Counted from the stretch's first letter, positions 7,240-28,887 are shown. The stretch: 32,045 bases of DNA from Chloroflexota bacterium (GCA_021787935.1 JAJYLC010000023.1:1-32045), one strand, 5' to 3'. A program made the numbers and translations. Notes: generated by a model not told the origin, from the letters alone.

Positions 7240-7250
7240 GTTTTTCCTCC

Positions 7251-8993: not shown

Positions 8994-9034
8994 GTACCAC
9001 CTCCCATAAGTTATTTGGTTAAGTAAGTATAGGC

Positions 9035-10681: not shown

Positions 10682-10703
10682 GAAGTTCCTCCTCTTGGTC
10701 GTA

Positions 10704-12431
10704 TCAGCGAGGTATTGCAGAAACCTTTTCCTTTTGGGGTATGTAATACGGCGACGGGTACCACCATTTGCCTGGCTCAGCGATACTGTCCTCAATAAGT
10801 ATGTGCATCAGGTTGTAGGGTATAGCCATGAGGCACAGCCCCCCCGGATGTCCTGTGGTCTGGTGACAGGTGTAAAGTCCTTCAATAGGAGTGCGGTATC
10901 GGGCCAACTCCGGCATAGGACGCCGCGTCCAAGATTGGTCACGGCAGTGGCGGGAGCCGCACCAGGTGCCGCCTATGAGACCTGTATTACGGAACTCCAC
11001 TTCCCGGCCGGTGGCTGACCAGAGGTGGATAATGTTTTCATCCTCAAGCCCGTCCAGCGCCTGACTGAAGGCCTTGCGCATATAAGCGTCCAGCTTGGCT
11101 TTTTCTTTGTCCTGCGCATCGATGCCTTCAATCTGATACTCCGGGACAGGGACATTCACCTCGAAGGCGGCTGAAATATATCCCTCGCGATATCTACCCT
11201 GACAATCGGTAGGATTGAATGCCTGGGAAGGAGTGAGGAACCACATCAACTTTTCAGGTGGCAAGGTGGGAAGGCTCTTACGTGCATCGCAGTCAGCCAC
11301 GTTTTCATAGTAGAGCTCCCGTGAGTCCGATGGGTAAACCCCTCCGGAGGCAACCTTTGCCGGTCCTGCAACACCTGTTTCGCTCTCCTGCATTGCTTTG
11401 AATTTCTTATTCCACTGTATAGGCTTGCGAGTATGGTAAGTAGATACATAAAGCGTGCCGTTCTTCAGGCTGATGTCCTTCACTTTCTGAATAAACGATG
11501 GGTCGAGATGCTCCCTGCCTATCATCTTGAGGAAAGTCTGTTTATAGTCTACGGCGGCTATCACTGCCTTGTTCGCCCAGATTTTCCGGCCGCCTATTGC
11601 CGCTGTCTCCCTCAAGCGCACTCCCATCGCTCGCCCGTCCTGCACTATGATTTCCTCGACAGGGCAGGCCGTGCGCACCACCGCGCCGTGGGCTACGGCG
11701 CAGCGGTGGATGGCATGGAAATAGCCGTGGAGGCCACCGCGCGGAATGCTGAGTTTACCTGTATTCGGTAGAATAAGAAGCTGTACACTGAGCAAAGCCG
11801 GGATGGCTACACCTTCCCAATGTCCGGCGGCTCCCGATGCCCAGGCTGCGAACGCCATAGTTACTTTGAAAGGCTCGCTCTCACAAAACTCGTCCATAAG
11901 CTCGAACATCGTCCAGTCACGCAACTCCGGTGTGCATACATCGGGCTGGTATTTTTTGTAAACCTGCATGTAAGGGGTGTTTTCATCCGTCACTTCCACT
12001 TCAGGGGGATGAGGGGGGCACCAAAAGGTGGCACGCATAAGCTCTCGGGTGAAGGGAGGTTGACCGAGCAGGCCGCCCAATTTGGCGAAGCCCATGGCAT
12101 CCTTTTCTGTGATGCGAGTCACCCCTTGAGTGGTAGTGTTGCCTGCAGTCAGCGATCTCATCATATCCTCGGGGTTCCAGACCATGCGAAAACCGTACTT
12201 GTGAAGCTCAAGCTGCTCGAAACCCGGGGCGGGGGATGCGTACATGAGCATGGCATGAGGATAAATGCGCACACCGGGTATAGGTTCGACAGTCTCGCAT
12301 GCGCCGCCACATTCTACGCGCTCCTCCAGCACGCAGACGCTCAGGCCGCATTTAGACAGGTATGCTGCCGTAGTCATCCCGTTAGGGCCTCCACCTATGA
12401 TGACAACATCATATCTTTCATCTCTGGACAT
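10704..12431 (-). CDS. FAD-dependent oxidoreductase, phytoene-dehydrogenase superfamily (COG1233), subtype A, copy 1
   Basis: A 575-residue flavoprotein and the first gene of the six-flavoprotein operon. YDVVIIGGGPNGM starts the FAD domain and VCVLEERVECGG completes the ADP-ribose contact. The C-terminal motif is the subtype A form LYTCHQTTGHPGGLCLMAIP, and the tail GKWWYPSPYYIPQKEKVSAIP is shared with the other A copies. The ATG at 12431 follows TAGGAGG. Upstream is a 475-bp gap with a TATAAT box and leader hairpins, so transcription of the whole run probably starts there. No carotenoid or terpenoid synthesis genes are nearby, so a classical phytoene-desaturase role is unlikely. Confidence 0.88.
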   Translation of the reverse strand: MSRDERYDVVIIGGGPNGMTTAAYLSKCGLSVCVLEERVECGGACETVEPIPGVRIYPHAMLMYASPAPGFEQLELHKYGFRMVWNPEDMMRSLTAGNTTTQGVTRITEKDAMGFAKLGGLLGQPPFTRELMRATFWCPPHPPEVEVTDENTPYMQVYKKYQPDVCTPELRDWTMFELMDEFCESEPFKVTMAFAAWASGAAGHWEGVAIPALLSVQLLILPNTGKLSIPRGGLHGYFHAIHRCAVAHGAVVRTACPVEEIIVQDGRAMGVRLRETAAIGGRKIWANKAVIAAVDYKQTFLKMIGREHLDPSFIQKVKDISLKNGTLYVSTYHTRKPIQWNKKFKAMQESETGVAGPAKVASGGVYPSDSRELYYENVADCDARKSLPTLPPEKLMWFLTPSQAFNPTDCQGRYREGYISAAFEVNVPVPEYQIEGIDAQDKEKAKLDAYMRKAFSQALDGLEDENIIHLWSATGREVEFRNTGLIGGTWCGSRHCRDQSWTRRPMPELARYRTPIEGLYTCHQTTGHPGGLCLMAIPYNLMHILIEDSIAEPGKWWYPSPYYIPQKEKVSAIPR

Positions 12432-12906: not shown

Positions 12907-13182
12907 TTACCCGCCGCTGATAGCGAGCACGAAGAAAAGCTCGTCGCCATCGTTCAGCGGCTTCGTCAGGTCATCGGCCGAGATTTTTTGTCCATTAACA
13001 AAAAACCATATCTGGGGTCGCAGATTGCCCTGCTTATCATAAAGCCATCTCTTTATTTTCGGGAATCGAGCTTCTAATTCGTGAAGGCATTCCACAGTGT
13101 TATTTCCTGTTACCTTCACAAACTCTTGACCGTCGGTAAATTTGCGGAATAGCGAAGATATTTTTATAGTGACATTCATCAT
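12907..13182 (-). CDS. MoaD/ThiS-like ubiquitin-fold sulfur carrier
   Basis: A 91-residue small protein of the MoaD/ThiS fold. It ends in the diglycine LAISGG, the tail that an E1-like enzyme adenylates and that can then carry sulfur as a thiocarboxylate. VKISSLFRKFTDGQ at the front and NDGDELFFVLAISGG at the end are typical for MoaD. Its ATG overlaps the stop of the thiF/moeB-like gene by four bases, so the two are co-translated partners. Placement next to a tungsten aldehyde oxidoreductase suggests work on the pterin cofactor; neighbouring AOR, MoaD and MoeB genes are a known arrangement. A role in thiamine or tRNA thiolation is less likely from context. Confidence 0.85.
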   Translation of the reverse strand: MMNVTIKISSLFRKFTDGQEFVKVTGNNTVECLHELEARFPKIKRWLYDKQGNLRPQIWFFVNGQKISADDLTKPLNDGDELFFVLAISGG

Positions 13183-13898
13183 CTACACTCGCAGCAATTC
13201 GGGTCTCTCTTCAGTCTGACTTCACTGAATTTCATGCTTAGTCCATCGTAAATCAAGAGCCTGTCTGTAAGCAATTCGCCTATGCCCAGGATATACTTCA
13301 ATACTTCGCTAGCCTGAATGCAGCCTATGATTGCAGGGGTAACTCCCACCACAGGGATCTTACCGGGGATAACGCCTTGGTACAAGCACCTCAAGCACGC
13401 TGTCTTGCCAGGGACTACTGTGGTGGCCCTGCCCTCGAAGCCGTAGACTGCCCCATGAAACAAGGGCAGTTTTTTCTTGACGGCAACCTTGTTTAACAGA
13501 AACCTTGCCGGAAGATTGTCCATAGCGTCCACTATCAAATAATCGCCCAGAATGTCGAACACATTATTCTCATCAATCGTTTCTTTTATAGCCTCTACAT
13601 TAATTTGCGGATTAAGCACCTCTAGCTTCTCTTTAGCCGAGTCAACCTTATCCCTTCCTATGTCCTTATCTGAGTGCAGCACCTGACGGTTCAAGTTGCT
13701 GAGCTCCACCTTGTCACCATCTATAATTTTGATTCTCCCCACACCAGCTACGGCTAAATAGGTTAAAATGGCAGAGCCGAGACCGCCGACCCCAGCAACC
13801 AAAACCTTTGCCTTCTTAAGTTTTTCCTGCCCCGATTTTGACCAGCCGGGAATCAGTATTTGTCTTTCATATCTTGCTAGTTCCGACTTGTCGAGCAT
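13179..13898 (-). CDS. ThiF/MoeB/HesA-family E1-like adenylyltransferase
   Basis: A 239-residue enzyme of the E1-like superfamily, expected to adenylate the C-terminal glycine of the MoaD-like protein encoded next. The ATP site is VAGVGGLGSA (about 34-43), followed by IIDGDKVELSNLNRQ and the GRDKVDSA block. The zinc-binding cysteines appear as C168-x2-C171 and a CCEC cluster at 235-238 close to the C-terminus. There is no rhodanese domain, so the length matches bacterial MoeB/ThiF rather than the longer sulfurtransferase fusions. The ATG at 13898 follows GAGAGGAAG. The gene lies 158 bases after the aldehyde oxidoreductase with a palindrome between, so it may be partly uncoupled from it. Confidence 0.88.
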   Translation of the reverse strand: MLDKSELARYERQILIPGWSKSGQEKLKKAKVLVAGVGGLGSAILTYLAVAGVGRIKIIDGDKVELSNLNRQVLHSDKDIGRDKVDSAKEKLEVLNPQINVEAIKETIDENNVFDILGDYLIVDAMDNLPARFLLNKVAVKKKLPLFHGAVYGFEGRATTVVPGKTACLRCLYQGVIPGKIPVVGVTPAIIGCIQASEVLKYILGIGELLTDRLLIYDGLSMKFSEVRLKRDPNCCECR

Positions 13899-13996
13899 CT
13901 TCCTCTCTCATCAATAGCAATGGCAGCAATGTTAAAAGCACTGTTTGATATTAACCCATTTGGCTTATCATTGCCAGCGGGTCTCTTAATTAATGG

Positions 13997-14028
13997 GAGT
14001 ACCTGTCCCCCGCGGGGGACAGGTACTC
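13997..14028. repeat. 32-bp perfect palindrome between the AOR and thiF-like genes
   Basis: GAGTACCTGTCCCCCG is followed immediately by its exact reverse complement, with the centre at CG|CG (14011-14014). It lies 29 bases past the AOR stop. As RNA it would fold into a very strong 14-bp stem and could end transcription or protect the AOR message, but no U run follows on the minus strand (CCATTAATTAAG instead). A perfect, GC-rich palindrome of this size also fits a REP-like dispersed element; only a genome search would tell. Confidence 0.85.
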
Positions 14029-14056
14029 GACTCAAGGAGGGCAGGGAACTTAAGGT

Positions 14057-15910
14057 CTATTTGTATAGTTTGGCGGCAAGCTCGGACAGGCCCAGGCTTA
14101 CCAGTTTTTCCTTCAAGGGGCGGCCCTTGGCATCCAGGCCCCTTGCTTTATAGTAATCTTTCAGCATTAGTTCTACATTGGGCACCGAGCCCGCAGCGCC
14201 ACCGTCAGGGAGCGGGGTCAAAATCCGCTTCGGCATTCGGTCGTCTGCGGCTGTAATTCCCATGAGATTGTTCAGACCCCTTTGAAGCATCCAGATACGC
14301 TCGCCACACTCCATGATTTCTTTTAGGTCGTAGTCAAAACCGGTGGCAGCCTTCAGCGCCTCCGCCAACTCGGTAATCGACATGGACATGAGGCCGAACT
14401 GGCACATTGTCGCTGCATTTGACAGCATTGCCACGTTTTCGCAGATAAAGTTAAGCTCACCTTTGCCCTCGTCAGCCTTGGGGTCGTAGCCGCCTGTTAT
14501 ACCAATGTCCGGCCAGGTGGTCCAGCTCGATTCAATCTTGCCTATCTCGGATGCCACGTGGCAGGCGCCACGATTGGACATCACGAAACCGAGGCCATGA
14601 CCATGGGACCCCCGCGAATCGTACAAAGCATACTCGAGGCCTTTAATCTCCACTGTATAATCTGCTGCATTCTTGCCTATCTTTTTAGCCGCACCGCGGC
14701 TGCCCTCCGCCAGCACATTGCCGAAGTCTTTGCGGTATGTTATCTTCTCCATCATCGCCAGGACATCGTCTGCATTCCCCCACCTCAACTGTCCCCCTTC
14801 CAGGTCCTTGGACGTAATTAGGCCCTTCTCGAAGCACTCCATGGCGAAGGCAATGGTGGCCCCGCAGCTAATGCTGTCCATGCCATATCGGTTCGCCATC
14901 TCATTCATTTTGAGGATGGCTGCCATGTTTTCAATAACCATCAGGGAGCCGAAGGCGCCGATTGTCTCATACTGGGGGCCGGGCCCCTCTGCAATGGCGT
15001 AGGGCCCCTCAGCTAGCTTTACTGTTCTCTTGCACGCTATGGGGCAGGTGTAGCATGCATGTGGCTTTATCAGGTAGGCACCCAGCGCACCGCCGCCGAG
15101 CAGCGGCCCCAGCCAGTTGCCGTCGCCCACCGTGTAATTCTTAACCGGCAGAACGCCGGTCATAGCATTTACGTCCACCCCCATTGCGGTACCGGCGCCT
15201 GTGAGGGCCTGCGTGATGACACTTTCCTTGACCTTAGCCAGAGCATTCTTGCGTACATTCTCGAACTCTTCCAGATCGGCTGGTATCACTTTGCCCGTGC
15301 CACTGATAACAATAGCCTTCAGCTTCTTGGAGCCCATCACCGCACCGCCGCCGCAGCGGCTGACTGAGCCCCATTTCGTATTCATTATGTTGGCAAACTT
15401 TACCAGGTTCTCTCCGGCAGGGCCTATCTCCAGCACGTCTGCTTTGTTGCCATGACGTTTCTTGAGAATATCCGAGGTTTCATATATATCCTTTCCCCAC
15501 AAATCGGAGGCGTCCTTAATCTCCACCTTGTCATCTGCTATCACGATATACACAGGTTTCTTGGAAGCGCCTGATATGGCAATTCCATCGTAACCTGCTC
15601 TCTTCATTTCAGCCGCGAAGTTGCCTCCGGCCGAGCCCTGTCCCCAGATACCTGTCTGAGGTGATTTAAAGGCTGCCAGCAGGCGTGAAGATGTGAAAAA
15701 GTTGGTCCCTGACAAAGGGCCAGCCATAAGGAAAAGTACGTTCTTGGCGGACAGTGGTTCAGTGTCGGGAGGAACACGATCAAAGAATAGCTTCGCTGCG
15801 AGCCCGGCCCCTCCGATAAATTTTCGCAACACATCGTCTTTTATCTCGGTAGTTTTGACTTTGCCACTGCTTAGGTCTATATCAAGTATCTTTCCTCTGT
15901 TTGTTCCCAT
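14057..15910 (-). CDS. Aldehyde:ferredoxin oxidoreductase family (tungsten/molybdenum bis-pterin enzyme)
   Basis: A 617-residue AOR-family protein. The family oxidises aldehydes to acids with ferredoxin, or runs the reverse, using a tungsten or molybdenum bis-pterin cofactor and one [4Fe-4S] cluster. The N-terminus NRGKILDIDLSSGKVKT and the GGAGLAAKLFF block are typical of domain 1. The cluster cysteines are visible as C286-x2-C289-x3-C293 (CYTCPIACKR), with the fourth as C503 in MCQFG, matching the spacing in known AORs. The ATG at 15908-15910 starts the normal N-terminus. It lies 69 bases after the synthase-fold gene, with no promoter seen between, so it probably belongs to the CoA operon. 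Substrate specificity within the family cannot be read from sequence. Confidence 0.93.
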   Translation of the reverse strand: MGTNRGKILDIDLSSGKVKTTEIKDDVLRKFIGGAGLAAKLFFDRVPPDTEPLSAKNVLFLMAGPLSGTNFFTSSRLLAAFKSPQTGIWGQGSAGGNFAAEMKRAGYDGIAISGASKKPVYIVIADDKVEIKDASDLWGKDIYETSDILKKRHGNKADVLEIGPAGENLVKFANIMNTKWGSVSRCGGGAVMGSKKLKAIVISGTGKVIPADLEEFENVRKNALAKVKESVITQALTGAGTAMGVDVNAMTGVLPVKNYTVGDGNWLGPLLGGGALGAYLIKPHACYTCPIACKRTVKLAEGPYAIAEGPGPQYETIGAFGSLMVIENMAAILKMNEMANRYGMDSISCGATIAFAMECFEKGLITSKDLEGGQLRWGNADDVLAMMEKITYRKDFGNVLAEGSRGAAKKIGKNAADYTVEIKGLEYALYDSRGSHGHGLGFVMSNRGACHVASEIGKIESSWTTWPDIGITGGYDPKADEGKGELNFICENVAMLSNAATMCQFGLMSMSITELAEALKAATGFDYDLKEIMECGERIWMLQRGLNNLMGITAADDRMPKRILTPLPDGGAAGSVPNVELMLKDYYKARGLDAKGRPLKEKLVSLGLSELAAKLYK

Positions 15911-15979: not shown

Positions 15980-17002
15980 CTAGTAAGGAGCGCGTTTCAG
16001 TTGCTCCCTGGCCCTGACGTAGGATGTATAAGTGATGCATTGTTTGCGATTGATATACTTTTCCAGGGGAATAAGCTGCTTTCTTTTCCTGGTTATGCCA
16101 TTACGCACGACCAGGCTCATGGCGTTGCTGGCTCCTGAGCCATAAGATGCGAGCAAAATCGTTTCATCTGGCTTTGCCTTATCCAGTACTCCCGCAAGGC
16201 TGATGAATGTCGAGCATGACCCCAAGTCGCCCAGAGTTGATGCAATTCCCGGGGCCAATCTGTCTTTCTGTATTCCCAGATCTTTAGCAGGTAAGCTCGG
16301 AATTCGCTCATCCGGCTGCGCAAATACTGCGTAGGTATAATCCTGTGCTTTCTTTCCCAGTTTCTCCAAAAGCCCCTTGCATGCCTCAGCTACGTGTTTT
16401 TGATAGCCATATTCTCGGTCAAACCGGTAATCGTTCAGGTTAGATACCCACGAATCTTTAACAGACCGCCATCTGTCCAGGAAAAAGGTAGAATAGGTAT
16501 GCAAACCCTCAAAGTCGGCGATAGCGCCTGCAGCGCTGATCACCATAGCTACGGCTCCAGCGCCGAAGTTGGCATCGCCTTCCGTGCCTGGAGCAGTAGC
16601 TCTGTTCTCTGCGCCGATAACGAGGCCGCATTTGATTCTTTTGGCAGCTATGGCATCTAGGCATCCTAAAAGCGCGTTGGCAAGCGCATTTAAGGAGCCT
16701 GAGTAATCTATCATGGTAGTTTCCGCAGGCAATCCCAGGGTTTCAGCCAGGATGGGGGTTACATATTGCTCTATATATGGTGAAGACGCTGTGCCGATGT
16801 ATATTGCCCCGATTTGGGCCGGATCGATGCCGGCATGTTTCATGGCATTGTCGGTGGCCTCGGCTGCCATGGTTACGATATCCTCGTCCGTCCCGCAAAC
16901 CGATTTTTCTCCTCCTGCCCAGCTACCCCAGGGAATAGCAGCTTCTTTTTGCTCAATCCTGTAACGTGGAATATAAACTCCGTAGCCGATTATACCAGCC
17001 AA
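15980..17002 (-). CDS. HMG-CoA-synthase-fold protein without the catalytic residues (stand-alone copy)
   Basis: A 340-residue thiolase-superfamily protein closest to the archaeal type of HMG-CoA synthase: IIGYGVYIPRYRI at the start, then DEDIVTMAAEA, and GSGASNAMSL near the end. In archaeal enzymes the catalytic residues lie in GSESHPY, EFACKAGT and FHQP. The matching places here read GTASSPY (Glu to Ala72), DYSGSLNA (Cys to Leu104) and FAQP (His to Ala228). All three are lost, so it should not form an acyl-enzyme; it may be a scaffold, as PhlA is in the PhlABC acyltransferase. The start is TTG at 17000-17002 after AAGGAGG. It follows its thiolase by 20 bases. Confidence 0.82.
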   Translation of the reverse strand: MAGIIGYGVYIPRYRIEQKEAAIPWGSWAGGEKSVCGTDEDIVTMAAEATDNAMKHAGIDPAQIGAIYIGTASSPYIEQYVTPILAETLGLPAETTMIDYSGSLNALANALLGCLDAIAAKRIKCGLVIGAENRATAPGTEGDANFGAGAVAMVISAAGAIADFEGLHTYSTFFLDRWRSVKDSWVSNLNDYRFDREYGYQKHVAEACKGLLEKLGKKAQDYTYAVFAQPDERIPSLPAKDLGIQKDRLAPGIASTLGDLGSCSTFISLAGVLDKAKPDETILLASYGSGASNAMSLVVRNGITRKRKQLIPLEKYINRKQCITYTSYVRAREQLKRAPY

Positions 17003-17022
17003 GTTAGCCTCCTTAATATATA

Positions 17023-18213
17023 TTACGGGGAGCGAGATAGAATGTTGACGGCAGAAACACCGAATGCAGGGCCACCTACATTATGCTGCAGCCCGATTCC
17101 ATTCTTGAGTTTCACCTGACGTTTATCTGCTTCCTCTCGCAGTTGGGTGACGAGCTCAAAGATCTGGCCCAGGCCGGTAGCCGCTATGGGGTGCCCGTGT
17201 GCTTTCAATCCCCCGCTGGGATTTATGGGCAGGCTGCCGTGCATGTCGAACTCGCCATCTTTGAGCTTTCGCGCAGCCTCACCTTTGCGGACAAAGCCTA
17301 CGTCCTCAGCGTTCATTAGCTCGGTGTTGGTGAAGCAGTCGTGCAGCTCGGCGAAGTCAACGTCGCTCGGCTTGATGCCTGCCATCTGGAAGGCACCTTT
17401 GGCCGCCCTGACTGTAGAAAGCTGCTCAATGAAGCTATTCCTGTCCCAGAGCTGGTTGTGGTCTACGCCTACGTTGCTGGCCAAAACATATACCGGCTTG
17501 CTAGTGTATTTCTTGGCCAAGTCGGCGCGACAAACAATCGCAGCGGCTGCGCCGTCGGTCTGAGGGCAACAATCGAACAGGTGAAGCGGCCAGCAAATGA
17601 CAGGGCTGTTGAGGACACGCTCCAGGGTTATCTCGAATTGATAATGTGCGTAGGGACAAAATGTCCCGTTATGATGGTTCTTGACAGCCACTCTGGCGAA
17701 GTCCTCCATGGTGTACCCGAGTTCGTACATCTGTCTGGTAGCATGCATAGCCTGAATGGCCGGGCCACCCTGCCCGATCATCCAGGCCGGGTGGTTGCCT
17801 GTTTCAGCGCCGCCGCCGCCGCCAGCGCCCCCCAGCGATTCAGCGGAAGGCTTGTCTCTCATTTTCTCTGCCCCGAGTGCCAGGACAACATCATACATGC
17901 CTGAAGCTACGCCGAGACAGGCGTGCCTGAAGGTATCACCTCCGGTGGGACAGGCATTTTCGAGTCTGGTACAGGGTATATTGCGGTTGCCTATCATGCT
18001 TGCCAGGGATTGCCCGCTCTGAGCGCCCTGGCCGATGAAGCCTCCGCTCCACTGTCCAAACCAGGCGGCCTTGATTTCTTTGGGGTCTATTCCTTTGTCA
18101 ACGTTTTTCAGACAATTTAGATACGCTTCCTGAATCATATTTTCCAGGCTTTTTTCAAAAAGCTCCCCAAACTTGATCATCCCCACCCCGATAACAGCAA
18201 CTTTGCCTCTCAT
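17023..18213 (-). CDS. SCP-x/Ltp-type thiolase, catalytic residues intact
   Basis: A 396-residue thiolase. The nucleophile is C88 in LENACPTGG; H291 in HDCFTNTE and H341 in AHGHPIAATG are the other active-site residues. The C-terminal QHNVGG replaces the CxG of degradative thiolases, as is usual in the SCP-x, Ltp and archaeal acetoacetyl-CoA thiolase group. A glycine-rich loop GGAGGGGGAETG near residues 128-139 is unusual. The family makes or breaks C-C bonds next to a CoA thioester, and members of this subgroup work in complex with DUF35 proteins. The DUF35 gene ends four bases upstream and the synthase-fold gene starts 20 bases downstream, so all three should be made together. ATG at 18213 after AGAGGAG. 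Confidence 0.9.
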   Translation of the reverse strand: MRGKVAVIGVGMIKFGELFEKSLENMIQEAYLNCLKNVDKGIDPKEIKAAWFGQWSGGFIGQGAQSGQSLASMIGNRNIPCTRLENACPTGGDTFRHACLGVASGMYDVVLALGAEKMRDKPSAESLGGAGGGGGAETGNHPAWMIGQGGPAIQAMHATRQMYELGYTMEDFARVAVKNHHNGTFCPYAHYQFEITLERVLNSPVICWPLHLFDCCPQTDGAAAAIVCRADLAKKYTSKPVYVLASNVGVDHNQLWDRNSFIEQLSTVRAAKGAFQMAGIKPSDVDFAELHDCFTNTELMNAEDVGFVRKGEAARKLKDGEFDMHGSLPINPSGGLKAHGHPIAATGLGQIFELVTQLREEADKRQVKLKNGIGLQHNVGGPAFGVSAVNILSRSP

Positions 18214-18217
18214 ATTT

Positions 18218-18619
18218 TTACTCCTCTACCAATCTGAACTTGTAGCCATAGACGTTCAGCCCTCTATCTGTGGTAAGCTTTCTGAGAACCATCTCCACCT
18301 TGGCGCCTATTTTGACGTCTTCAGGCGCGCCAAACTCTGTCATCAGCCCCTGGTATCTGCCGCCTCCCTCCAGGTCGACTATGACAGGCATGATAGGCGG
18401 CTCAAAGGTTGGTGGCGGCGCCCAGTTCACACAGAAGGTATGTATCGTTCCTCTTTTAGGGAGCTGGTATTCCTCAAGCTTTTGACTGCCGCATTCATGG
18501 CAGATTTTGGTTCGAGGATAGCTGATGTGGCCGCAATCCTGGCACTTGATACCTATAAGCCTGAACACTTCGGGGTTAAATCGCCAGAATACTGGCGATG
18601 CCGGTGCCGGTTGAGTCAT
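18218..18619 (-). CDS. DUF35 protein: zinc ribbon plus OB fold, acyl-CoA enzyme partner
   Basis: A 133-residue protein of the DUF35 family. The rubredoxin-like zinc ribbon is C26-x2-C29-x10-C40-x2-C43 (CQDCGHISYPRTKICHECGS). The OB-fold part follows at about 50-130, with the typical MPVIVDLEGGGR and GAKVEMVLRK strands. DUF35 proteins bridge thiolases and synthase-fold proteins or bind CoA in known complexes (archaeal thiolase/HMG-CoA synthase, PhlB, ChsH2 with Ltp2). Here the gene precedes a thiolase by four bases, which is the normal pairing. ATG at 18619 follows AGGAGG. The second DUF35 domain of this operon is fused to another protein (21074-22522). Confidence 0.9.
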   Translation of the reverse strand: MTQPAPASPVFWRFNPEVFRLIGIKCQDCGHISYPRTKICHECGSQKLEEYQLPKRGTIHTFCVNWAPPPTFEPPIMPVIVDLEGGGRYQGLMTEFGAPEDVKIGAKVEMVLRKLTTDRGLNVYGYKFRLVEE

Positions 18620-18670
18620 TGGTTAACCTCCTTACTCGATTTAGATGCAAAAACTGCCGTTAAGTTTGCC

Positions 18671-19861
18671 TTATCGTGGCAATTCCAGCCCTCTCATGGC
18701 AATTACATTTCTTTGAATCTCGGATGTGCCGCCTCCCATGTTCAAGCTGATACACTCTTGATAAGAGCTTTCAAACCTTCCCCTCAAAGGGGCCCATTTG
18801 GAGCCAGACTTCACTTGCCCGTAGAGGCCGAGAATCCTGGAGCCGGCATAGGCCAGGCGCTGTCCCAGCTCACTTCCGTAAACCTTTCCTGAGCAGGCCG
18901 TAACGGCAGCCGGGATAACAAATGCTTCCCCTTTCTGTTGCAGCCAGGCTACCTTGTAGGAGAGAGCAATCCCTACCTCCACGTCGATAGTCAATTGCGC
19001 CAGAAGTTGGCGGACCAGAGGCTGCTCCGAAAGGCGCTTACCATCTCGTTTAGTCTCTTTGCAATACTCTATAAGCTCTTCGAGGTTTCGTTTGGCCTCT
19101 GCCATAAACCCTATGCTAGATCTTTCGAAGTTCATGGTCATCAGGCTGACATACCACCCCCTGTGCTCGTCGCCGACCATATTTTCCTTCGGCACTTTAA
19201 CATCATCGAAGTACATTTCGTTAAACATATGGGTGCTGTTCATAGCCTTCACAGGGCGGACATTGATGCCAGGCGTGCTCATATCCACAAGGAAGAACGA
19301 AAGGCCGCGGTGCCGGGGTTGCTCTGGGTCAGTCCTTGCCAGCATAAAGCACCATTGAGCGCGATGCGCGCCGCTTGTCCAGGTCTTCTGCCCGTTGATG
19401 ATATAGTAATCTCCGTTCCTGACGGCCCTCGTCTTAAGGGAAGCCAGGTCGGACCCGGCGTTAGGCTCGCTCCAGCCCTGGCACCACATAATCTCACCAT
19501 TGGCTATGGGTGGCAGATGCTGCCGTTTCTGCTCCTCGTTACCTGACGCAAGGAGGGTGGGGGCAAGCATCCCCACGCCTTGTACGTCTATGCCCGGAGC
19601 CCTGTAGTACGCTTTAGCCGCATTGAACAGGAGTTGCTCCATGATAGGAGCTGCCTGCCCGCCGTATTCCCTGGGCCAGGGGCGGGAGAGCCATCCTCTC
19701 TCTCCAAGCCTCCTCGCCATATAGCGATGGAATCCCCATGCCTCATCGTTATCATAGATGCTTTCTGCACTCAGAGGTGGCGACTTTTTCATCTCTTCTC
19801 TGAAGAAATTCTCGAATTCCGCCTTCAGCGCTTCTTGCTCAGGAGTGAGACGGAAATCCAA
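18671..19861 (-). CDS. Acyl-CoA dehydrogenase family protein
   Basis: A 396-residue flavoenzyme of the acyl-CoA dehydrogenase family, expected to introduce a C2-C3 double bond in an acyl-CoA. Family signatures are WCQGWSEPNAGSDLASLKTRA in the middle and GGGTSEIQRNVIAMRGL at the end. At the position of the classical catalytic Glu before GTxxIQR there is Gly, so the base must lie elsewhere, as in some other family branches, or the activity has changed. A GTG start at 19870 is possible, but TTG at 19859-19861 gives the family's usual MDFxLTPEQ beginning and has a GGGGG site eight bases away; I prefer it. Soluble. It lies between the two thiolase/synthase sets, 30 bases after one and 51 before the other. 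Confidence 0.9.
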   Translation of the reverse strand: MDFRLTPEQEALKAEFENFFREEMKKSPPLSAESIYDNDEAWGFHRYMARRLGERGWLSRPWPREYGGQAAPIMEQLLFNAAKAYYRAPGIDVQGVGMLAPTLLASGNEEQKRQHLPPIANGEIMWCQGWSEPNAGSDLASLKTRAVRNGDYYIINGQKTWTSGAHRAQWCFMLARTDPEQPRHRGLSFFLVDMSTPGINVRPVKAMNSTHMFNEMYFDDVKVPKENMVGDEHRGWYVSLMTMNFERSSIGFMAEAKRNLEELIEYCKETKRDGKRLSEQPLVRQLLAQLTIDVEVGIALSYKVAWLQQKGEAFVIPAAVTACSGKVYGSELGQRLAYAGSRILGLYGQVKSGSKWAPLRGRFESSYQECISLNMGGGTSEIQRNVIAMRGLELPR

Positions 19862-19891
19862 TATGACCACCCCCTTTTAAAAATTGTTTAC

Positions 19892-21061
19892 TCAAAGCCC
19901 GACGATGCAGACGCTGACTGTGGGCGCCAGAGGCTCGTGTCCCATATTATGGGCGAGGCCCAGCTTGGGATTTTTTATTTGACGCTTGTCTGCCCTGCCT
20001 TGAAGCTGAAGGTAAAGCTCATACAGCATCCTTATGCCGGAGGCGCCGATAGGATGACCGAAGCACTTTAAGCCACCATCGGGCTGCACCGGCAGGGCTC
20101 CTGTCAGTTCAAAGGTCCCGGCATCGATATCCTCCTTCACCTTGCCTCTCTGGCTGAACTGAAGGTCTTCCATTGTTACAGCCTCGGTGATGGAGAAGCA
20201 GTCGTGTACCTCCGCCATGCTTATTTCTTTGCGGGGATTTTTGATCCCGGCTTCCTTATAAGCTGCCAAGCCGGCACGGTATCCTTCTTCTACATGGGTG
20301 AAATCGTAGTCTGTGGTCAAGCGGCCTGAGGTGGGGCTGGCACATATCTGCAGAGCCTTGATATATACCGGGTCCGGGCGGAACTTTTTTGCTAACTCGG
20401 CGCTGGTTATGATTGCGGCAGCGCCCCCGTCGGAAACACCGCAACAGTCGAACAGTCCCAGAGGCCAGGCGATGATGGGAGCATTCAACACGCGCTCCAC
20501 GGTTAGCACATTTCGCAGATGTGCCTTGGGATTCATAGAGCCGTTGTAGTGGCTCTTCACGGATATCTTAGCCAGCATAGTCTTGCCTTCCTGGGGGCTC
20601 AATCCATAGCGGTGAAAATACTTTGTCGCCATCATGGCGAACATGCCTGGCATAGTCGCTACGGCATGGGTGTGGGTTAAATTATCCATACCAGGCAGGC
20701 CGCTCGTGCCCTCGTCCTTGAGTTTCTCGAAACCGACAGCAAGGACGATATCGTAAATGCCGGCAGCCACAGAGTAGGAGGCGTTTCTCACGGCATCGTG
20801 TCCAGAGGCGCAGGCGTTCACGCAATGAGAAACAGGTTTAAATTGTAACCTCAGCGGCTCGCTTACAGAGCGTCCTCCGTGTCCGCTGAAAATGCTGCCT
20901 GCCCAGGCGGCCTCGATATCTTTAATCTCAATACCCGCATCGGCTAAAGCCTCGTTAACAGCTTCCACAATCAGGTCGCTGGGGCCTTTGCCCCACAATT
21001 CACCGAACCGGGTGCAGCCCATGCCTATAATGGCAACCCGGTCTTTAATGCTCCCCGACAT
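19892..21061 (-). CDS. SCP-x/Ltp-type thiolase, second copy, catalytic residues intact
   Basis: A 389-residue thiolase of the same subgroup as the one at 17023-18213, but clearly a separate paralogue. C84 in VNACASGHD is the nucleophile, H286 lies in HDCFSITE and H336 in FGHPIGASG. The C-terminal loop reads AHNMGHEP, with His after MG where the other copy has Gly, so the acyl pocket probably differs. It lacks the long glycine loop of the other copy. It starts 12 bases after the fused synthase-fold/DUF35 gene, at an ATG with AAGGAGG, and so probably works with it. The reaction could be thiolysis, Claisen condensation or retro-aldol cleavage; sequence does not decide. Confidence 0.9.
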   Translation of the reverse strand: MSGSIKDRVAIIGMGCTRFGELWGKGPSDLIVEAVNEALADAGIEIKDIEAAWAGSIFSGHGGRSVSEPLRLQFKPVSHCVNACASGHDAVRNASYSVAAGIYDIVLAVGFEKLKDEGTSGLPGMDNLTHTHAVATMPGMFAMMATKYFHRYGLSPQEGKTMLAKISVKSHYNGSMNPKAHLRNVLTVERVLNAPIIAWPLGLFDCCGVSDGGAAAIITSAELAKKFRPDPVYIKALQICASPTSGRLTTDYDFTHVEEGYRAGLAAYKEAGIKNPRKEISMAEVHDCFSITEAVTMEDLQFSQRGKVKEDIDAGTFELTGALPVQPDGGLKCFGHPIGASGIRMLYELYLQLQGRADKRQIKNPKLGLAHNMGHEPLAPTVSVCIVGL

Positions 21062-21073
21062 ATCTTGCCTCCT

Positions 21074-22522
21074 TTAACACCTGATGGGGCGAGCCTTCCA
21101 GTAATAGTTGGCGATGCCCCGATTGAAGTACACCTTCCTGAAGGTCATCTCAACCTTCATTCCAACCTGGACTTCAGCGGGGTTTCGGTCTGTGAGGTCA
21201 AAAAGCATCCTGCCGCCGTCTTCGAAGTCGATCAATACTACAGAGGAAGGTGGGTCCGGGGCTGGAGCCAGTTGGTCCAGGGTATAGCTAAACACAGTCG
21301 CCTTTTTTCTGGAGAAATCGTAGTCATCGAAGTCATCTACTGCACCGCATACTGCACAGACGCGGATGGGTGTGGTGGTGATGCCGCCGTTGTCATACTG
21401 AGGCGTCTGGCATTGTCTGCACTTGATTCCCCAAAGCCCTAAAAGGTCTTTTCTCTGCCTCCAGATTGCCGATACGGAGATGGGGCCTCTATCGGGACGC
21501 CTGGCCTGGTCAAGGGGCACGATTTCGCGCCAGCGCAGATAATCATTGTAGTTCTCCATCATATGCTTGGATTCCAGGTGTTTGGAGAATCCTCGGCGCG
21601 CCCCCAGTTTCTTGATGGCGTTAGTCACCTGTAGAACAAAAGCATCGGCGCCATTACCATAGCCAGCGAAAAGGATTTTCTCTCCGGGTTCAGCCTGTTC
21701 CAGTGCGCTTATCAGCATCACGAAAGGCATAGCTGAGCCCAGGAGCCCCACGTTCATGAAGATACCTGCCGGATCGAGCAATTGGGTAGCGTCAAAACCA
21801 AGCTCCGATGCAACTCTTCCGTGTCTTCTTACATCGCCTGGCGGATCGAAAACGACCTTAGCGAAGTCCTTGGGCGAAAGCCCGCACTTATTCATTACTC
21901 CTGATAAGACCTCGGGCATTACTCTGGAATAGCTTTCATCCATAACCATGCGGTCTTCCCAGGCGCGGATGAAAGTGTCGTTCTCGCTCCTCCATGTTGC
22001 CGCCAGTTCATCTGAGACAGAGTAGCTATCCAGAATTTCGGCAATAACGTTCTTCTTACCCACAAGAATCGCTCCGGCGCTGTCTCCTAAAGCCTGTTCG
22101 TTTATCCCGGAGGGAGGCGCCATTCTGGTATCTGATGCTGCCACCAGAATATTGCTGGCCCTACCGGCTTTTACGGCGTCCAGAGCGAATCCTAATGCTG
22201 TTGTCCCGGAGCGCAGCGAGCCCGTTACATCTGATGTCTGAATATCACGGCGCAGGTGCAGCGCCAAGGCCATTGTGGCCGAGCAAAGTTTCTCCTTGTA
22301 TGGAGATGTAGTGGTGGCAAAAAAGAGACCATCAACTGTGGCGGGGTCTAGGTCTGTCAGACAATCTATAGCTGCTCCCACAGCCATGGTCACACTATCC
22401 TCGTCATAATAAGCAATCGCCCTTTCTCCAGGTATAGCAAAGCCTCCCCAGGCCTTGGCAAATTTCTGCCGGTCTATGCGGTGCCAGGGGATATAGGCTC
22501 CATACGAGGTTATGCCTATCAT
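21074..22522 (-). CDS. Fusion of catalytic-residue-less HMG-CoA-synthase-fold domain and DUF35 domain
   Basis: A 482-residue two-domain protein, first gene of the CoA operon. Residues 1-310 have the synthase fold (MIGITSYGAYIPWHRI, DEDSVTMAVGA, AGYGNGADAF). Residues about 360-482 are DUF35: zinc ribbon C368-x2-C371 and C389-x2-C392, then the OB strands VVLIDFEDGGRML and GMKVEMTFRKV. The catalytic places of archaeal HMG-CoA synthase read ATTTSPY (Glu to Thr71), DVTGSLRSGT (Cys to Leu103) and FDPP (His to Asp226). Thus it lacks the same three residues as the stand-alone copy but with different replacements. The ATG at 22520-22522 follows AAGGAG; the 16 codons before it in frame are not needed. 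Confidence 0.85.
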   Translation of the reverse strand: MIGITSYGAYIPWHRIDRQKFAKAWGGFAIPGERAIAYYDEDSVTMAVGAAIDCLTDLDPATVDGLFFATTTSPYKEKLCSATMALALHLRRDIQTSDVTGSLRSGTTALGFALDAVKAGRASNILVAASDTRMAPPSGINEQALGDSAGAILVGKKNVIAEILDSYSVSDELAATWRSENDTFIRAWEDRMVMDESYSRVMPEVLSGVMNKCGLSPKDFAKVVFDPPGDVRRHGRVASELGFDATQLLDPAGIFMNVGLLGSAMPFVMLISALEQAEPGEKILFAGYGNGADAFVLQVTNAIKKLGARRGFSKHLESKHMMENYNDYLRWREIVPLDQARRPDRGPISVSAIWRQRKDLLGLWGIKCRQCQTPQYDNGGITTTPIRVCAVCGAVDDFDDYDFSRKKATVFSYTLDQLAPAPDPPSSVVLIDFEDGGRMLFDLTDRNPAEVQVGMKVEMTFRKVYFNRGIANYYWKARPIRC

Positions 22523-22850: not shown

Positions 22851-23513
22851 ATGGAGAAAACGAGGCTTCTTGTTGTAGATGATGAGGCTCTATTCCGGGA
22901 GCTCTTATGCCGTACTCTGTCCGCAGAACCTGAGTTGGAAGTTATCGGGGTGGCGGGGGACGGCGAGACTGCGGTACAGCTTGCCAAAAAGGAGAAGCCA
23001 GATGTGGTGATTATGGATATCGAACTCCTCGGCAAGCTTGACGGGATTGAAGCAGCCCTGCAGATCAAGAAGGAGAGGCCGCAAACTGGGATTGTCATCC
23101 TGTCCGCTCACAGCGAGCGACGTTATGTGACGAGCTTGCCCCTTGAGGATATACAGGGGTGGGCATATCTTTTGAAACAGACAGCCCCGGACCTTGCCAC
23201 AGTGGTGCGCGCCATCGAAGGGAGCAAGGCAGGGATGGTAGTCTTGGATCCGACGGTAGTGGCGGGTCTGCGGCCCAGGCAGGGCTCGGCTGTGGCTAGG
23301 TTGAACCCCAGGCATCAGGAAGTGCTGGAGCTGCTCGCTCAGGGGTACAGCAATGCTGCCATAGCTCAACTGTTGAAGCTATCCCGTAAGTCGGTTGAAA
23401 CCTACATAAACGCTATATACCAGGAACTGCATCTTTCCCACGAACAGGATATTCACGCCCGCGTCAAGGCCACTCTCCTCTATCTGGAAAGCTCCAGGGG
23501 CCGTCAGGGATAG
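22851..23513 (+). CDS. NarL/LuxR-family response regulator
   Basis: A 220-residue two-component regulator. The receiver domain (1-125) has acidic residues D10 and D11, phospho-acceptor D56 in VIMDIELLG, Ser in ILSAHSE and Lys in LLKQ. The C-terminal LuxR-type helix-turn-helix is at about 150-215 (LNPRHQEVLELLAQGYSNAA, then SRKSVETYINAIYQEL). ATG at 22851 after GGGAGGG. It is the only DNA-binding partner for the nearby kinase and stands divergent to the CoA operon, so it may act on the duplicated element in front of both (inference). A hairpin and a receiver-only gene follow. Confidence 0.93.
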   Translation: MEKTRLLVVDDEALFRELLCRTLSAEPELEVIGVAGDGETAVQLAKKEKPDVVIMDIELLGKLDGIEAALQIKKERPQTGIVILSAHSERRYVTSLPLEDIQGWAYLLKQTAPDLATVVRAIEGSKAGMVVLDPTVVAGLRPRQGSAVARLNPRHQEVLELLAQGYSNAAIAQLLKLSRKSVETYINAIYQELHLSHEQDIHARVKATLLYLESSRGRQG

Positions 23514-23532
23514 ACGAGGAAAATCGTCAGGC

Positions 23533-23583
23533 TGGCACTATGTTATCTGTCCTCAGAGCCGTTACTCTAGTTATGGGCTGAGG
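23533..23583 (+). promoter_or_regulatory. Intergenic motif and hairpin between the two regulator genes
   Basis: TGGCACTATGTTATC (23533-23547) resembles, with two added bases, TGGCACTGTTATC on the minus strand of copy A, and may be a further regulator site. Just after it CCTCAG (23551-23556) and CTGAGG (23578-23583) form a 6-base stem. No U run follows, so it looks more like a partial attenuator or processing site than a terminator. Confidence 0.3.
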
Positions 23584-23613
23584 TGCAAGGGCTTATCAGA
23601 GGAGAGTTGCATA

Positions 23614-23982
23614 GTGTACAGAGTCATTGTTGTTGATGATGAGCCGGAGTTTCGCGAATGGCTTAAGTCGTTGATGGAAAATAGCAAAGACTTCAAACTA
23701 GTGGGCGAGGCTAAAACCGGTACGGAAGCTGTTTACCTCATTCCGTCCGTCCTGCCGGACCTTGTTATAGCGGACATGTATGTACCGGAGCCGGATGGTC
23801 TGGAGGTGGCGCGGTATGTTCAGCGCCATTTCTCAGGCATGAAAGCGATACTTGTTAGTGCCTACGAGGAACGAGTTTATGAAAGGCTGGCCAGAGAAGA
23901 AGGTGCACTGGCATTTATCCCAAAAGCGAGGCTTTCTCTGGATGCCCTGCGCCAGGCCCTGAAAGGGGAAGCAAAGCAGTAA
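23614..23982 (+). CDS. Single-domain response regulator (receiver only)
   Basis: A 122-residue CheY-like receiver with no output domain. D8 and D9 (VVDDEPEF), phospho-acceptor D54 in VIADMYVPEPDG, Ser in ILVSAYEE and Lys in FIPKARL are all present, so it should be phosphorylated. The start is GTG at 23614 with GGAG about ten bases upstream. The same strand carries the LuxR regulator 100 bases before. Its last 68 bases overlap the 3' end of the histidine kinase on the other strand. Likely roles are a phosphate sink, a relay or protein-protein control; the sequence does not choose. Confidence 0.9.
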   Translation: MYRVIVVDDEPEFREWLKSLMENSKDFKLVGEAKTGTEAVYLIPSVLPDLVIADMYVPEPDGLEVARYVQRHFSGMKAILVSAYEERVYERLAREEGALAFIPKARLSLDALRQALKGEAKQ

Positions 23983-26284
23983 CCTCAGTCCCTTCGCCCG
24001 GAGCGCTTCTAACAACGCACTTGCCGCCACCTACCTCAGCGTAGTCCTGCATCATCAATAAACCCCGGCCACCTGTGATGCTTCGTGGTTCGAACCCCTG
24101 GGCATTATCTCGCAGAGTTAGGGAGAGCCATTCCTCAGGAAGCAGCCTCAACCCAATAGTGATTTTGCTTGCCTTGGTATGCTTGACTACATTGGTCAGG
24201 GCTTCCTCGGCAATGCGATATGCTGCAAGCCTTACCCCCTCTGAAATCAACTGGGGATTTAGTCTTTCCCGCTGCTTGAGCTGTTCATCCAATTCCATCT
24301 CGATGTTCAAGGAGGCCTCAAATTGGTCTCCCAGAGACTGCAGAGCCGCAACCAAACCACGGCGCAGGATGGAGGGATAGAGCCTGTGGCTGATGGGGCG
24401 GACCTGGTTATCCAGCAATTCCCCCAATTTCTGACGCAGGTCCTTTATTTCTTGAGCCAGCTCTCCGGCGGGGGCCTTGTGCTCCAGTTCCGTAAGCCGG
24501 TGCAGCAGAATGATAAGCCTGTTCTGGACTGACCCGTGGAGTTGCTGCGCGATGTCTCTACGCATTGACTCCTGCGCAACTATAATGCGTTGCAGGGATA
24601 GCTGCAATTCCTCCGCTCTGGCCATGGCTGCCGCATGTTCAATCCGTTCCTGTTCCGCTATCTTGCGTTCGGTGATATCGCGGAAATTGGCGAGAATGCC
24701 GCCCACAACCGGGTCGTTAAGGAAGTTTCTAGCCATAACTTCAAGAGTACGCCACGAGCCGTCTCTGTGCTGTGTTCGCAGTTCGCCTTGTTGTGTAGAA
24801 CCGGGCTTTTTGACCAGTTCGGTGAATGTCTTAATGACATATGTCCTGTCATCTGGATGGATAAGCATAAATGCGTTCTTGCCTTTGTGCTCGTCAAGCT
24901 TGTATCCCAATACACGTTCAATCGAGGGGCTTTGGTACATGATGTCTCCATCACTGTTTAGTATCGCAACATCATCCAATGAGTTCTCTATCATCACCCG
25001 AAAATGCTCTTCTCTCTGTTTCAGCGCTTCCTGAGCATGCTGACGCTCGGTCACATCACGGTAATTAATAACAATACCTTTAACCGCCGGATTATTCAGA
25101 AGGTTATTCGCTGTCCCTTCCATGATGTGCTCCGTACCATCCTTATGCAAGTAGCGGATTCCGGCAGGTATTGCCTGCGCCGGGTGTTTGGCAAGTCTCT
25201 TGAATGTTTTGCTGACCCTTTCTTTATCGTCAGGATGAATAAAGTCGAGTATGCTCTTTCCAATCAATTCTTCGGGTTTTATGCCGAGTATCCTTTCTGC
25301 GGATGGACTTTCATAACTTATCGTCAGGTCTTCATTTACAATCGCGATGCCGTCCAGAGAATTCTCGATGAGCGCTCGGAAGTGTTCCTCTCTTTCCCTC
25401 AGCATTTCCTCTGCGCGCTTGCGTTCAGTGATATCCCGGGCGTTAACTACGAAACCCCTGACAGTGGGGTCATCGACGAGGTTATTTGTGATACCTTCAA
25501 CTACATGCCATGTGCCGTCTTTATGCAGGAAACGTACCTCCAGGGCCACCGGCTGGCGGGGATTCCGGGTGAAGTTGTCGAAGTTGGCGGTGATATACTG
25601 TACATCTTCGGGGGAAAGGAACTCCAGTGCATTCTTCCCGACTATATCTTCCGGCCTATGGCCGAGTGTCCTTTCCACCGAAGGGCTTACGTAACGGACA
25701 GTCATGTCGCTGTTTGTGATCAGGCTGATGTCCATAGAGTTATCGATGAGTACCCTGAAGTTTTCCTCTCTTTTCCTGAGCGCCTCCTCCGCCCTCCTAC
25801 GCCTGGTAACGTCTCTCATGACAGCGACCAGCGTTTTGGGAATCCCCTGAGCATCTTTGATGACCGAAGCGGCAAAACTGATAGCGATTTCCTCTCCAGC
25901 TTTGTTCACAGCGCCGATATCTATATGTTCAGAGGTGCCCTTCTCCAAGACCTCTTTCAAAGCCTCTTTTGCCCTCTCCTTATCAATCGATCTTCGGTAT
26001 GTAGGCAATTCAAGAGCAGACGTTCCCACCAGTTCACTTGCCTTGTATCCGAGTAGGCTTTCAAAGGCTTTGTTGACATAAACTACTTTGCCTTCTGTAT
26101 CTACCAGCATAACGCCATCGGGCATCTCTTCGATGGCCGCTGATCTGACGAGTTTGCGTTTAAGCTGTGTTGCGTCAACCCTGTCTATCTCGGAATTCGA
26201 CTTCTCAAGTTCCGCAACACGCTTGTGCAGAGCTTCCAGTTCCTTTATAAGCTGGTTTTTGGCCTTATCTGCATTTTTGGCCAT
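23915..26284 (-). CDS. Soluble histidine kinase with four PAS domains (HisKA_3/NarX-type)
   Basis: A 789-residue sensor kinase without transmembrane segments, so it should sense a cytoplasmic signal. After a short coiled coil (10-35) come four PAS domains at about 45-165, 175-290, 302-415 and 428-542, each ending in RDVT/RDITER. PAS2-4 are much alike and look duplicated within the gene. The phosphoacceptor is H583 in QQLHGSVQNRL; most relatives have LHD, so Gly584 is a change. The ATPase domain shows EEALTNVVKH (N698), DNAQGF and GGRGLLMM. The ATG at 26282-26284 gives a normal N-terminus; the frame is open for 125 more codons, but those have no protein-like character. Partner of the regulators at 22851 and 23614. 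Confidence 0.92.
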   Translation of the reverse strand: MAKNADKAKNQLIKELEALHKRVAELEKSNSEIDRVDATQLKRKLVRSAAIEEMPDGVMLVDTEGKVVYVNKAFESLLGYKASELVGTSALELPTYRRSIDKERAKEALKEVLEKGTSEHIDIGAVNKAGEEIAISFAASVIKDAQGIPKTLVAVMRDVTRRRRAEEALRKREENFRVLIDNSMDISLITNSDMTVRYVSPSVERTLGHRPEDIVGKNALEFLSPEDVQYITANFDNFTRNPRQPVALEVRFLHKDGTWHVVEGITNNLVDDPTVRGFVVNARDITERKRAEEMLREREEHFRALIENSLDGIAIVNEDLTISYESPSAERILGIKPEELIGKSILDFIHPDDKERVSKTFKRLAKHPAQAIPAGIRYLHKDGTEHIMEGTANNLLNNPAVKGIVINYRDVTERQHAQEALKQREEHFRVMIENSLDDVAILNSDGDIMYQSPSIERVLGYKLDEHKGKNAFMLIHPDDRTYVIKTFTELVKKPGSTQQGELRTQHRDGSWRTLEVMARNFLNDPVVGGILANFRDITERKIAEQERIEHAAAMARAEELQLSLQRIIVAQESMRRDIAQQLHGSVQNRLIILLHRLTELEHKAPAGELAQEIKDLRQKLGELLDNQVRPISHRLYPSILRRGLVAALQSLGDQFEASLNIEMELDEQLKQRERLNPQLISEGVRLAAYRIAEEALTNVVKHTKASKITIGLRLLPEEWLSLTLRDNAQGFEPRSITGGRGLLMMQDYAEVGGGKCVVRSAPGEGTEVTALLPLSGPGAGHPEKASLLG

Positions 26285-26326
26285 GAGCCGCTCACCCCTG
26301 CCGACTTTTTGCCGAGGACCGGTTTC

Positions 26327-26381
26327 TACCCGAATTCGCGGGTATAACAAAAAGCATATCAAAAACCTTAAATTAACGCAA
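26327..26381 (-). promoter_or_regulatory. Promoter of the histidine kinase gene with a downstream dyad
   Basis: On the minus strand TTGCGT (26376-26381) and TATGCT (26353-26358) are 17 bases apart, and TG one base before the -10 makes it an extended type. Just downstream TACCCG-AATTCG-CGGGTA (26327-26344) is a dyad in the early transcript, either an operator or a leader hairpin. Confidence 0.45.
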
Positions 26382-26477
26382 CTTGCAGGGAGGTTCTCTA
26401 ACGAACTGCGCCTATATAGCCGTAGAGGTGGAAAAGGCGGGATATAGTCGGTTACATACCAGGCCCTCGCCGGGGCT

Positions 26478-26506
26478 TTGACGGTTGCCGGATGCGAGGA
26501 TAGAAT
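26478..26506 (+). promoter_or_regulatory. Promoter of the ATC-hydrolase-family gene
   Basis: TTGACG (26478-26483), a 17-base spacer and TAGAAT (26501-26506), five of six matches in both boxes. The start would be near 26513, 45 bases before the ATG at 26558. It is divergent to the kinase promoter, about 100 bases away. Confidence 0.55.
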
Positions 26507-26557
26507 TATTAGGGTGAGTGCTCCGGTTTCTAACCATTGAAACGAAGGTGTTGAAAC

Positions 26558-27268
26558 ATGAGAGTGGAAGATATGAGGAACTACGGGAAAGGCTTGATGG
26601 ATAGTGTGCCCGACCCCGGAATGATGGAACGTGAGGGGGAGATGAGGAGGAAGATGCAACAGGAGTTAGAGGGGGAACTGGGAAGTGCGGGTGCGATACA
26701 GCTTATGTCTAGAATGAAGGAAGAGAGCGAGCGTATGAAAGCTCGGGATCTTTCCAGTCTGAAAAAGCATGGACTCCGTGATCAAAGATTCATAGGTTCA
26801 GTTATTAAAAGGATAGCGCTAATGAAGGCGCTGGCGGATATGATAGGCATGGAGAAGGCGTCCGCGTTACAGTGCAGGCTGGTGGAAAATACTATATGGA
26901 AATTGATGTCACCGATGTGGCCATCGGTAGATGACTATAAAGATTGCGGCGACTTCTTTGAAGCTTTCAAGAAATACGGCATGGCTGCTATGATTGCAAA
27001 TGCGCGTGCTGGGCTGCACGAAGTGGAGTTAGTGGAAGACTCACCCGTCGCACTTGCCTTTAACGTCAAGTATTGTGTCTGGCATGAAGCAGCCAAATTG
27101 TTCGGGGACCCCTACTTGTGTTACCCCTCGACATGCTACGGCGACGAAGTAACTATCCCGAGGGTGCTGAGGCATACTGGATATCAGTTCAAGCGTGCCG
27201 GGACTCTAGCCCAGGGAGCGCCAGTATGTGACTTCAGATATGAACTTATCGCAACTGGCGAGCATTAA
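26558..27268 (+). CDS. L-2-amino-thiazoline-4-carboxylate (ATC) hydrolase-family protein
   Basis: A 236-residue cytoplasmic protein. The C-terminal half has the family's conserved features: YCVWHEAAKLFGDPYLCYPS at about 172-191, then CYGDE, and GTLAQGAPVCDFRYE at the end. The first studied member opens the thiazoline ring in a pathway to L-cysteine, but most members are found in other settings and their substrates are unknown. C173, H176, C188, C193 and C224 are candidate functional residues. The N-terminal 60 residues are charged and rich in Met and Glu, unlike the short start of the reference enzymes. It has its own promoter. Its stop overlaps the stop of the convergent propeller gene in a shared TTAA. 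Confidence 0.75.
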   Translation: MRVEDMRNYGKGLMDSVPDPGMMEREGEMRRKMQQELEGELGSAGAIQLMSRMKEESERMKARDLSSLKKHGLRDQRFIGSVIKRIALMKALADMIGMEKASALQCRLVENTIWKLMSPMWPSVDDYKDCGDFFEAFKKYGMAAMIANARAGLHEVELVEDSPVALAFNVKYCVWHEAAKLFGDPYLCYPSTCYGDEVTIPRVLRHTGYQFKRAGTLAQGAPVCDFRYELIATGEH

Positions 27269-28842: not shown

Positions 28843-28887
28843 CTTCCTCTCCTTTGCGGTTTTATCTTGTGTTGTTTTACTTCGTCC

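Follow-up and report, generated by a model that had tools for sequence, protein, structure and literature searches.

Putative non-catalytic HMG-CoA synthase homologs paired with thiolases in an operon of Chloroflexota

What might a protein with the fold of 3-hydroxy-3-methylglutaryl-CoA synthase (HMGS) do once all three catalytic residues of that enzyme have been replaced? The question is raised twice by a stretch of DNA of 32,045 nucleotides from a Chloroflexota bacterium (GCA_021787935.1 JAJYLC010000023.1:1-32045; the window), which encodes a stand-alone protein of this kind, H1, and a second one, H2, that continues into a DUF35 domain (Table 1). By analogy with the multicomponent acyltransferases PhlACB and MucABC, we consider it likely that H1 and H2 are catalytically dead, HMGS-fold subunits (pseudo-HMGS) of two multi-part thiolase complexes that work in a similar manner.

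Replaced catalytic residues in H1 and H2

Archaeal HMGS (PDB 6ESQ chain I) served as the reference for the catalytic triad (E82, C114 and H238) in phmmer and MAFFT alignments. In phmmer, it aligned to residues 3-336 of H1 (E 4.8e-51) and to residues 18-348 of the longer, mechanically called open reading frame of H2 (E 3e-28), which begins at a GTG at 22570; H2 is counted here from its ATG (21074-22522). The places of Glu, Cys and His are taken by Ala72, Leu104 and Ala218 in H1 (motifs GTASSPY, DYSGSLN and VFAQPD) and by Thr71, Leu103 and Asp226 in H2 (ATTTSPY, DVTGSLR and VFDPPG), and neither protein (A/L/A; T/L/D) thus has the catalytic residues of an archaeal-type HMGS. Both programs gave the same residues at all three places, in accordance with a first-pass annotation of this DNA, which had listed these replacements and the GSL common to both proteins at the Cys place. 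Alignment with archaeal HMGS and PhlA likewise put no Cys, His or Glu of H1 or H2 at an active-site place. A misalignment that masks a nearby Cys or His can be rejected, because the two programs agree and the Cys is absent from every clade homolog examined.

The same annotation had held the fold to be intact, and the AlphaFold models (mean pLDDT, the predicted local distance difference test, 86.4 for H1 and 76.6 for H2) bear this out. Their best structural match in the PDB, according to Foldseek, is 6ESQ_I (TM-score 0.87-0.89 for H1; 0.86 by target length for H2), with the corresponding chains of PhlABC and MucABC close behind, and both proteins are accordingly predicted to adopt the HMGS fold of the thiolase superfamily. 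Automatic annotation had been expected to label both as HMGS. This holds for H1, which passes NCBIfam NF003274 with 293.9 bits (cut-off 244), and fails for H2, which scores 201.8 bits; TIGR00748 is passed by neither. Purifying selection is strong on both genes, with a ratio of nonsynonymous to synonymous substitution rates (dN/dS) of 0.057 for H1 and 0.053 for H2. Since this ratio is near 0.05 and all clade homologs lack the Cys, the triad being lost clade-wide, chance loss or a decaying gene can be rejected. It is constraint, in the form of dN/dS and of newly fixed residues (see below), that indicates a retained function.

Could H1 and H2 still be true HMGS that employ other catalytic residues? 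Overall similarity and the NF003274 score of H1 would speak for it. Against it stand the loss of the three catalytic and of several other invariant HMGS residues, and the metabolism of the window's family, in which IspG was found in 9/9 genomes and HMG-CoA reductase in 0/9. More broadly, HMG-CoA reductase is encoded by 25/25 Chloroflexota genomes with a triad-bearing (live) HMGS, versus 0/25 of those with the dead family only; over the 34 dead-only genomes tested, the count is likewise zero. We regard such an activity as exceedingly improbable, and the earlier judgment that these proteins are unlikely to be HMGS gains support from the residues and from both genome comparisons.

The dead clade and its thiolase partners

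The host genome (Dehalococcoidia; 2.68 Mb) encodes about 11 homologs of archaeal-type HMGS, none of which keeps the triad, and no triad-bearing archaeal-type HMGS was found in it. The sole match with both Cys and His (L012; L/C/H) was rejected as a live enzyme: at 83.5 bits against the cut-off of 244, it is a distant, KAS III-like relative. Members of the family fused to DUF35 occur in other Chloroflexota, in metagenome-assembled genomes (MAGs) of Deltaproteobacteria, in Desulfosarcina, Desulfotruncus and Bacillus/Peribacillus, and also in a Nitrospinae MAG, Candidatus Methanoliparum and a Bathyarchaeota MAG. No dead-clade member examined keeps the Cys, and the residues at the places of Glu and His are free to vary. 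Some Desulfobacterota frames of about 900 amino acids (L191, L204 and others of ~910-940) contain an HMGS-like domain at about twice the usual length and are possibly fusions with a thiolase as well.

In a quick HMGS tree, for which no root was inferred and in which the row of 9VBO is very long, all triad-bearing HMGS fall into one clade (Shimodaira-Hasegawa-like approximate likelihood-ratio test, SH-aLRT, 97), and the fusion family lies together with H1 across a branch with SH-aLRT 96. A third branch unites PhlA with the chain from 9VBO, and H1 and H2 do not group with PhlA/MucA by descent. Within the dead clade, H1 clusters with DUF35 fusions, among which are some that retain Glu or Asp (E/P/Q, E/T/Y, D/P/Q). 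As these relatives keep the acidic residue without the Cys, the sequences suggest that the Cys was lost before the Glu in this group and that H1 was separated from its DUF35 secondarily. The GSL of H1 and H2 may be convergent, because the nearest fused relatives of H1 carry Pro or Thr at the Cys place.

Might the remodeled proteins have acquired a catalytic function of their own, in a pocket around Glu 88 and Arg 144? The dead clade has also replaced other residues that are constant among live HMGS (H200, N241, Y272 and others), and it has fixed new ones common to H1 and H2, namely E88 (101/114), R144 (89%), D126 (84%) and G272 (98%). E88 and R144 are absent from live HMGS, which, together with the strong purifying selection, speaks for a new activity. 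The places of E82, C114 and H238 are free to vary, however, unlike an active site, and conserved charged pairs might equally well have a structural role, so that we hold a new catalytic function to be quite unlikely.

Among 219 co-directional HMGS-thiolase neighbor pairs, near-copies removed, 27 live HMGS adjoin a thiolase with its Cys and 20 (20/47) a Cys-less one, versus 169 and none (0/169) for dead HMGS; Fisher's test (p 1e-15) takes no account of common ancestry, and with 60% clustering the table shrinks to 2/1/81/0 (p 0.04). Both thiolase His are also kept wherever the gene is complete enough to be read, and the co-directional pairing of dead HMGS and thiolase is conserved across several phyla. 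Given that the dead clade is probably a single event, the pairing is evidence of consistent maintenance and not of many independent trials. A second DUF35 is rare near the fused genes (4/163; none in 159/163), as expected if each set needs one, and the unfused H1 has a separate DUF35 in its operon.

The Cys-less thiolases belong to HMGS operons of other Chloroflexota and a few archaea. On the thiolase tree they represent 2-3 losses or gains of the Cys, all on the live-HMGS side. In these mirror-image operons (L027-L055 in other Chloroflexota; L229, L231, L233 and L234 in archaea), a triad-bearing HMGS adjoins a thiolase-like gene with Gly, Asp, Glu or Gln in place of the Cys.

We are somewhat inclined to see in the window two representatives of a large class of such complexes, built on thiolases, that extends over several bacterial phyla and archaea. 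In this class, HMGS would long ago have been made non-catalytic, fused to DUF35 and expanded into numerous paralogs, each specific to its substrate (about 11 in this genome). Its mirror image is seen among the mevalonate operons of Chloroflexota and of some archaea, and in the sampled pairs either active site can be missing, never both. Such a class is undescribed as far as we could search the literature: open-access papers yielded no account of the fused family or the mirror-image pairs. The multi-phylum clade, the intact thiolase partner of each protein and the mirror-image pairs go beyond the first-pass annotation. If true, thiolase complexes that include a dead HMGS would make up a widespread class, which uncultured Dehalococcoidia would probably use on complex organic matter. 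The triad cleanly sorts the Chloroflexota tested by HMG-CoA reductase, and the label 'HMG-CoA synthase', given to proteins of many anaerobic bacteria and archaea, would mislead as evidence of a mevalonate pathway. Mirror-image pairs offer a natural experiment on why a multi-enzyme complex keeps a dead partner, be it as scaffold, CoA pocket or regulator.

The operon and its putative reaction

On the minus strand, the order is H2, T2, acyl-CoA dehydrogenase, DUF35, T1, H1, aldehyde:ferredoxin oxidoreductase (AOR), a MoeB-like gene, a MoaD-like gene and six flavoproteins. The operon thus comprises two sets, one of H2 (including its fused DUF35) and T2, the other of H1, T1 and a separate DUF35. 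The four zinc-ribbon Cys of the H2 DUF35 are invariant across 12 aligned relatives. In other genera of the family (L276-L282, L115), the order H2-T2-(acyl-CoA dehydrogenase)-DUF35-T1-H1-AOR is kept, with the dehydrogenase sometimes missing or contigs broken, and the H1-T1-DUF35 trio is also found away from H2 (L283-L286).

Table 1. Features of the two H/T/DUF35 sets and adjoining genes (window coordinates)
Feature	Position	Strand	Remarks
AOR	14057..15910	-	after H1 in the conserved operon
H1	15980..17002	-	stand-alone HMGS-fold protein; Ala72/Leu104/Ala218 replace Glu/Cys/His
T1, SCP2-type thiolase	17023..18213	-	presumed H1 partner; intact Cys/His (HDCF)/His (GHP)
Stand-alone DUF35 protein	18218..18619	-	zinc ribbon plus OB fold; presumed H1-T1 linker
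Acyl-CoA dehydrogenase	18671..19870	-	nearest solved structure 4X28
T2, SCP2-type thiolase	19892..21061	-	presumed H2 partner; intact Cys/His/His
H2, C-terminal part	21074..21475	-	fused DUF35 domain (PF01796); four zinc-ribbon Cys
H2, N-terminal part	21518..22522	-	HMGS-fold domain; Thr71/Leu103/Asp226 replace Glu/Cys/His

How might a dead HMGS contribute to a thiolase reaction? Homology and the conserved gene pairing suggest that each H protein forms a complex with its T protein and a DUF35, which would bind both partners, a role modeled on PhlACB and the archaeal thiolase/HMGS/DUF35 complex. We envision a scenario whereby the pseudo-HMGS dimer closes a shared cavity as the non-catalytic half of the chamber and helps to hold the CoA-bound acyl chain, and whereby the thiolase, with its Cys/His/His site, alone performs the chemistry. 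H1 and H2 would then act as a scaffold or in substrate holding, by analogy with the systems compared below. The reaction is most likely the CoA-dependent cleavage (thiolysis) of a bulky beta-ketoacyl-CoA in a pathway resembling beta-oxidation. The recurrent neighbors of the fusion family (acyl-CoA dehydrogenase, MaoC/FAS1-type hydratase, short-chain dehydrogenase/reductase, enoyl-CoA hydratase, CoA-transferase III and AMP-ligase) are the kind of genes that accompany a thiolase of beta-oxidation. The window's acyl-CoA dehydrogenase is nearest to 4X28, a cholesterol-catabolic enzyme of M. tuberculosis, and this nearness hints at bulky substrates.

Several points weigh against this proposal. Structure prediction covered monomers only, and few of the events behind the pairing counts are independent, namely one dead clade together with PhlA/MucA and 2-3 losses on the thiolase side. 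The newly conserved charged residues E88 and R144 might serve a new activity. A full round of beta-oxidation is not evidenced by the window operon, because neither a hydratase nor a 3-hydroxyacyl-CoA dehydrogenase is present within it.

Divergence along the operon is uneven. Against the same-genus contig L276, dS at 15980-19870 is 2.04 for H1, 1.46 for DUF35 and 0.99 for T1, compared with 0.36 for AOR and 0.66 for H2, a pattern that an exchange of the DUF35-T1-H1 segment would produce. AOR is accompanied by its own MoeB-like and MoaD/ThiS-like genes (12907-15910), and a two-gene, CrtI/CrtO-like flavoprotein module occupies 2171-12431 in three tandem copies (mutual identity 69-75% among a-copies and 55-62% among b-copies). 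On the other side, a LuxR-type response regulator and a multi-PAS histidine kinase lie divergently beside H2 (22851-26659), a position kept in several relatives (L277, L280, L282, L115); this pair is a possible sensor of the substrate. Farther out are a plus-strand frame with an ATC_hydrolase match (PF14196; 26558-27268) and a 525-amino-acid protein without Pfam match, adjoining a sulfotransferase and an APS (adenosine 5'-phosphosulfate) kinase (27265-30713) in an order kept in L115.

Comparison with known systems

Benzoylsuccinyl-CoA thiolase, BbsAB, is an SCP2-type thiolase with a DUF35 partner that acts on a bulky beta-ketoacyl-CoA. The window has the same two components, yet BbsAB contains no HMGS-fold subunit, and in NCBIfam T1 reaches 193.8 bits against the BbsB cut-off of 750 and the DUF35 protein 42.9 against 250 for BbsA.

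A thiolase fold bound by DUF35 is also found in the steroid side-chain aldolases Ltp2-ChsH2 and Sal-Shy (PMC12329534). T1 and T2 might conceivably be retro-aldolases of this type, with H1 and H2 merely carrying DUF35, and the nearness of the operon's acyl-CoA dehydrogenase to 4X28 would fit. The aldolases, however, perform retro-aldol chemistry with altered thiolase residues and have no HMGS-fold partner, whereas T1 and T2 retain the Cys and both His and have thiolases as their nearest solved structures. Identity with a steroid aldolase was rejected on these residues (C/H/H), and we consider retro-aldol cleavage very improbable.

In the archaeal complex (6ESQ), thiolase and HMGS are joined by DUF35 over a shared CoA site (PMC12329534). 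Its three folds are those of the H/T/DUF35 sets, its chains are the best PDB sequence matches of T1, T2 and H1, and the thiolase Cys/His/His is common to both. It differs in that H1 and H2 lack the HMGS active site, that H2 has DUF35 fused on, and that the window's family, devoid of HMG-CoA reductase, surrounds these genes with functions resembling acyl-CoA degradation and not the mevalonate pathway.

PhlACB of Pseudomonas (PpATase) and MucABC of Streptococcus (PDB 9VBO/9VBT) offer a parallel to the non-catalytic role proposed here. Both are multicomponent acyltransferases with a DUF35 part, a thiolase-fold subunit with Cys and His, as in the window sets, and an HMGS-fold subunit that has lost Glu and Cys (in MAFFT, C/G/Q for PhlA and C/E/Q for 9VBO chain A). 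PhlA, which carries Gly115 and Cys83 at the Cys and Glu places, was an apt precedent in the first-pass annotation: only residues of PhlC, with its Cys88, transfer the acyl group (PMC6392133). Does the window then encode CoA-independent C-acyl transfer by the same three-part assembly, with an aryl or alkyl ketone as product? The likewise dead HMGS-fold partners and the best PDB sequence match of H2, which is PhlA, favor this. T1 and T2, though, resemble 6ESQ_A, the thiolase of the archaeal complex (E 5.7e-77 and 4.2e-59), far more than PhlC (1.9e-22 and 1.1e-21), the tree sets PhlA/MucA apart, and the neighbors are genes of acyl-CoA catabolism, so that we judge C-acyl transfer unlikely and retain thiolysis with a pseudo-HMGS partner. 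PhlA and MucA occupy another branch of the HMGS tree and serve secondary-metabolite C-acylation, whereas the clade of H1 and H2 is mostly fused to DUF35, widespread and present in multiple copies.

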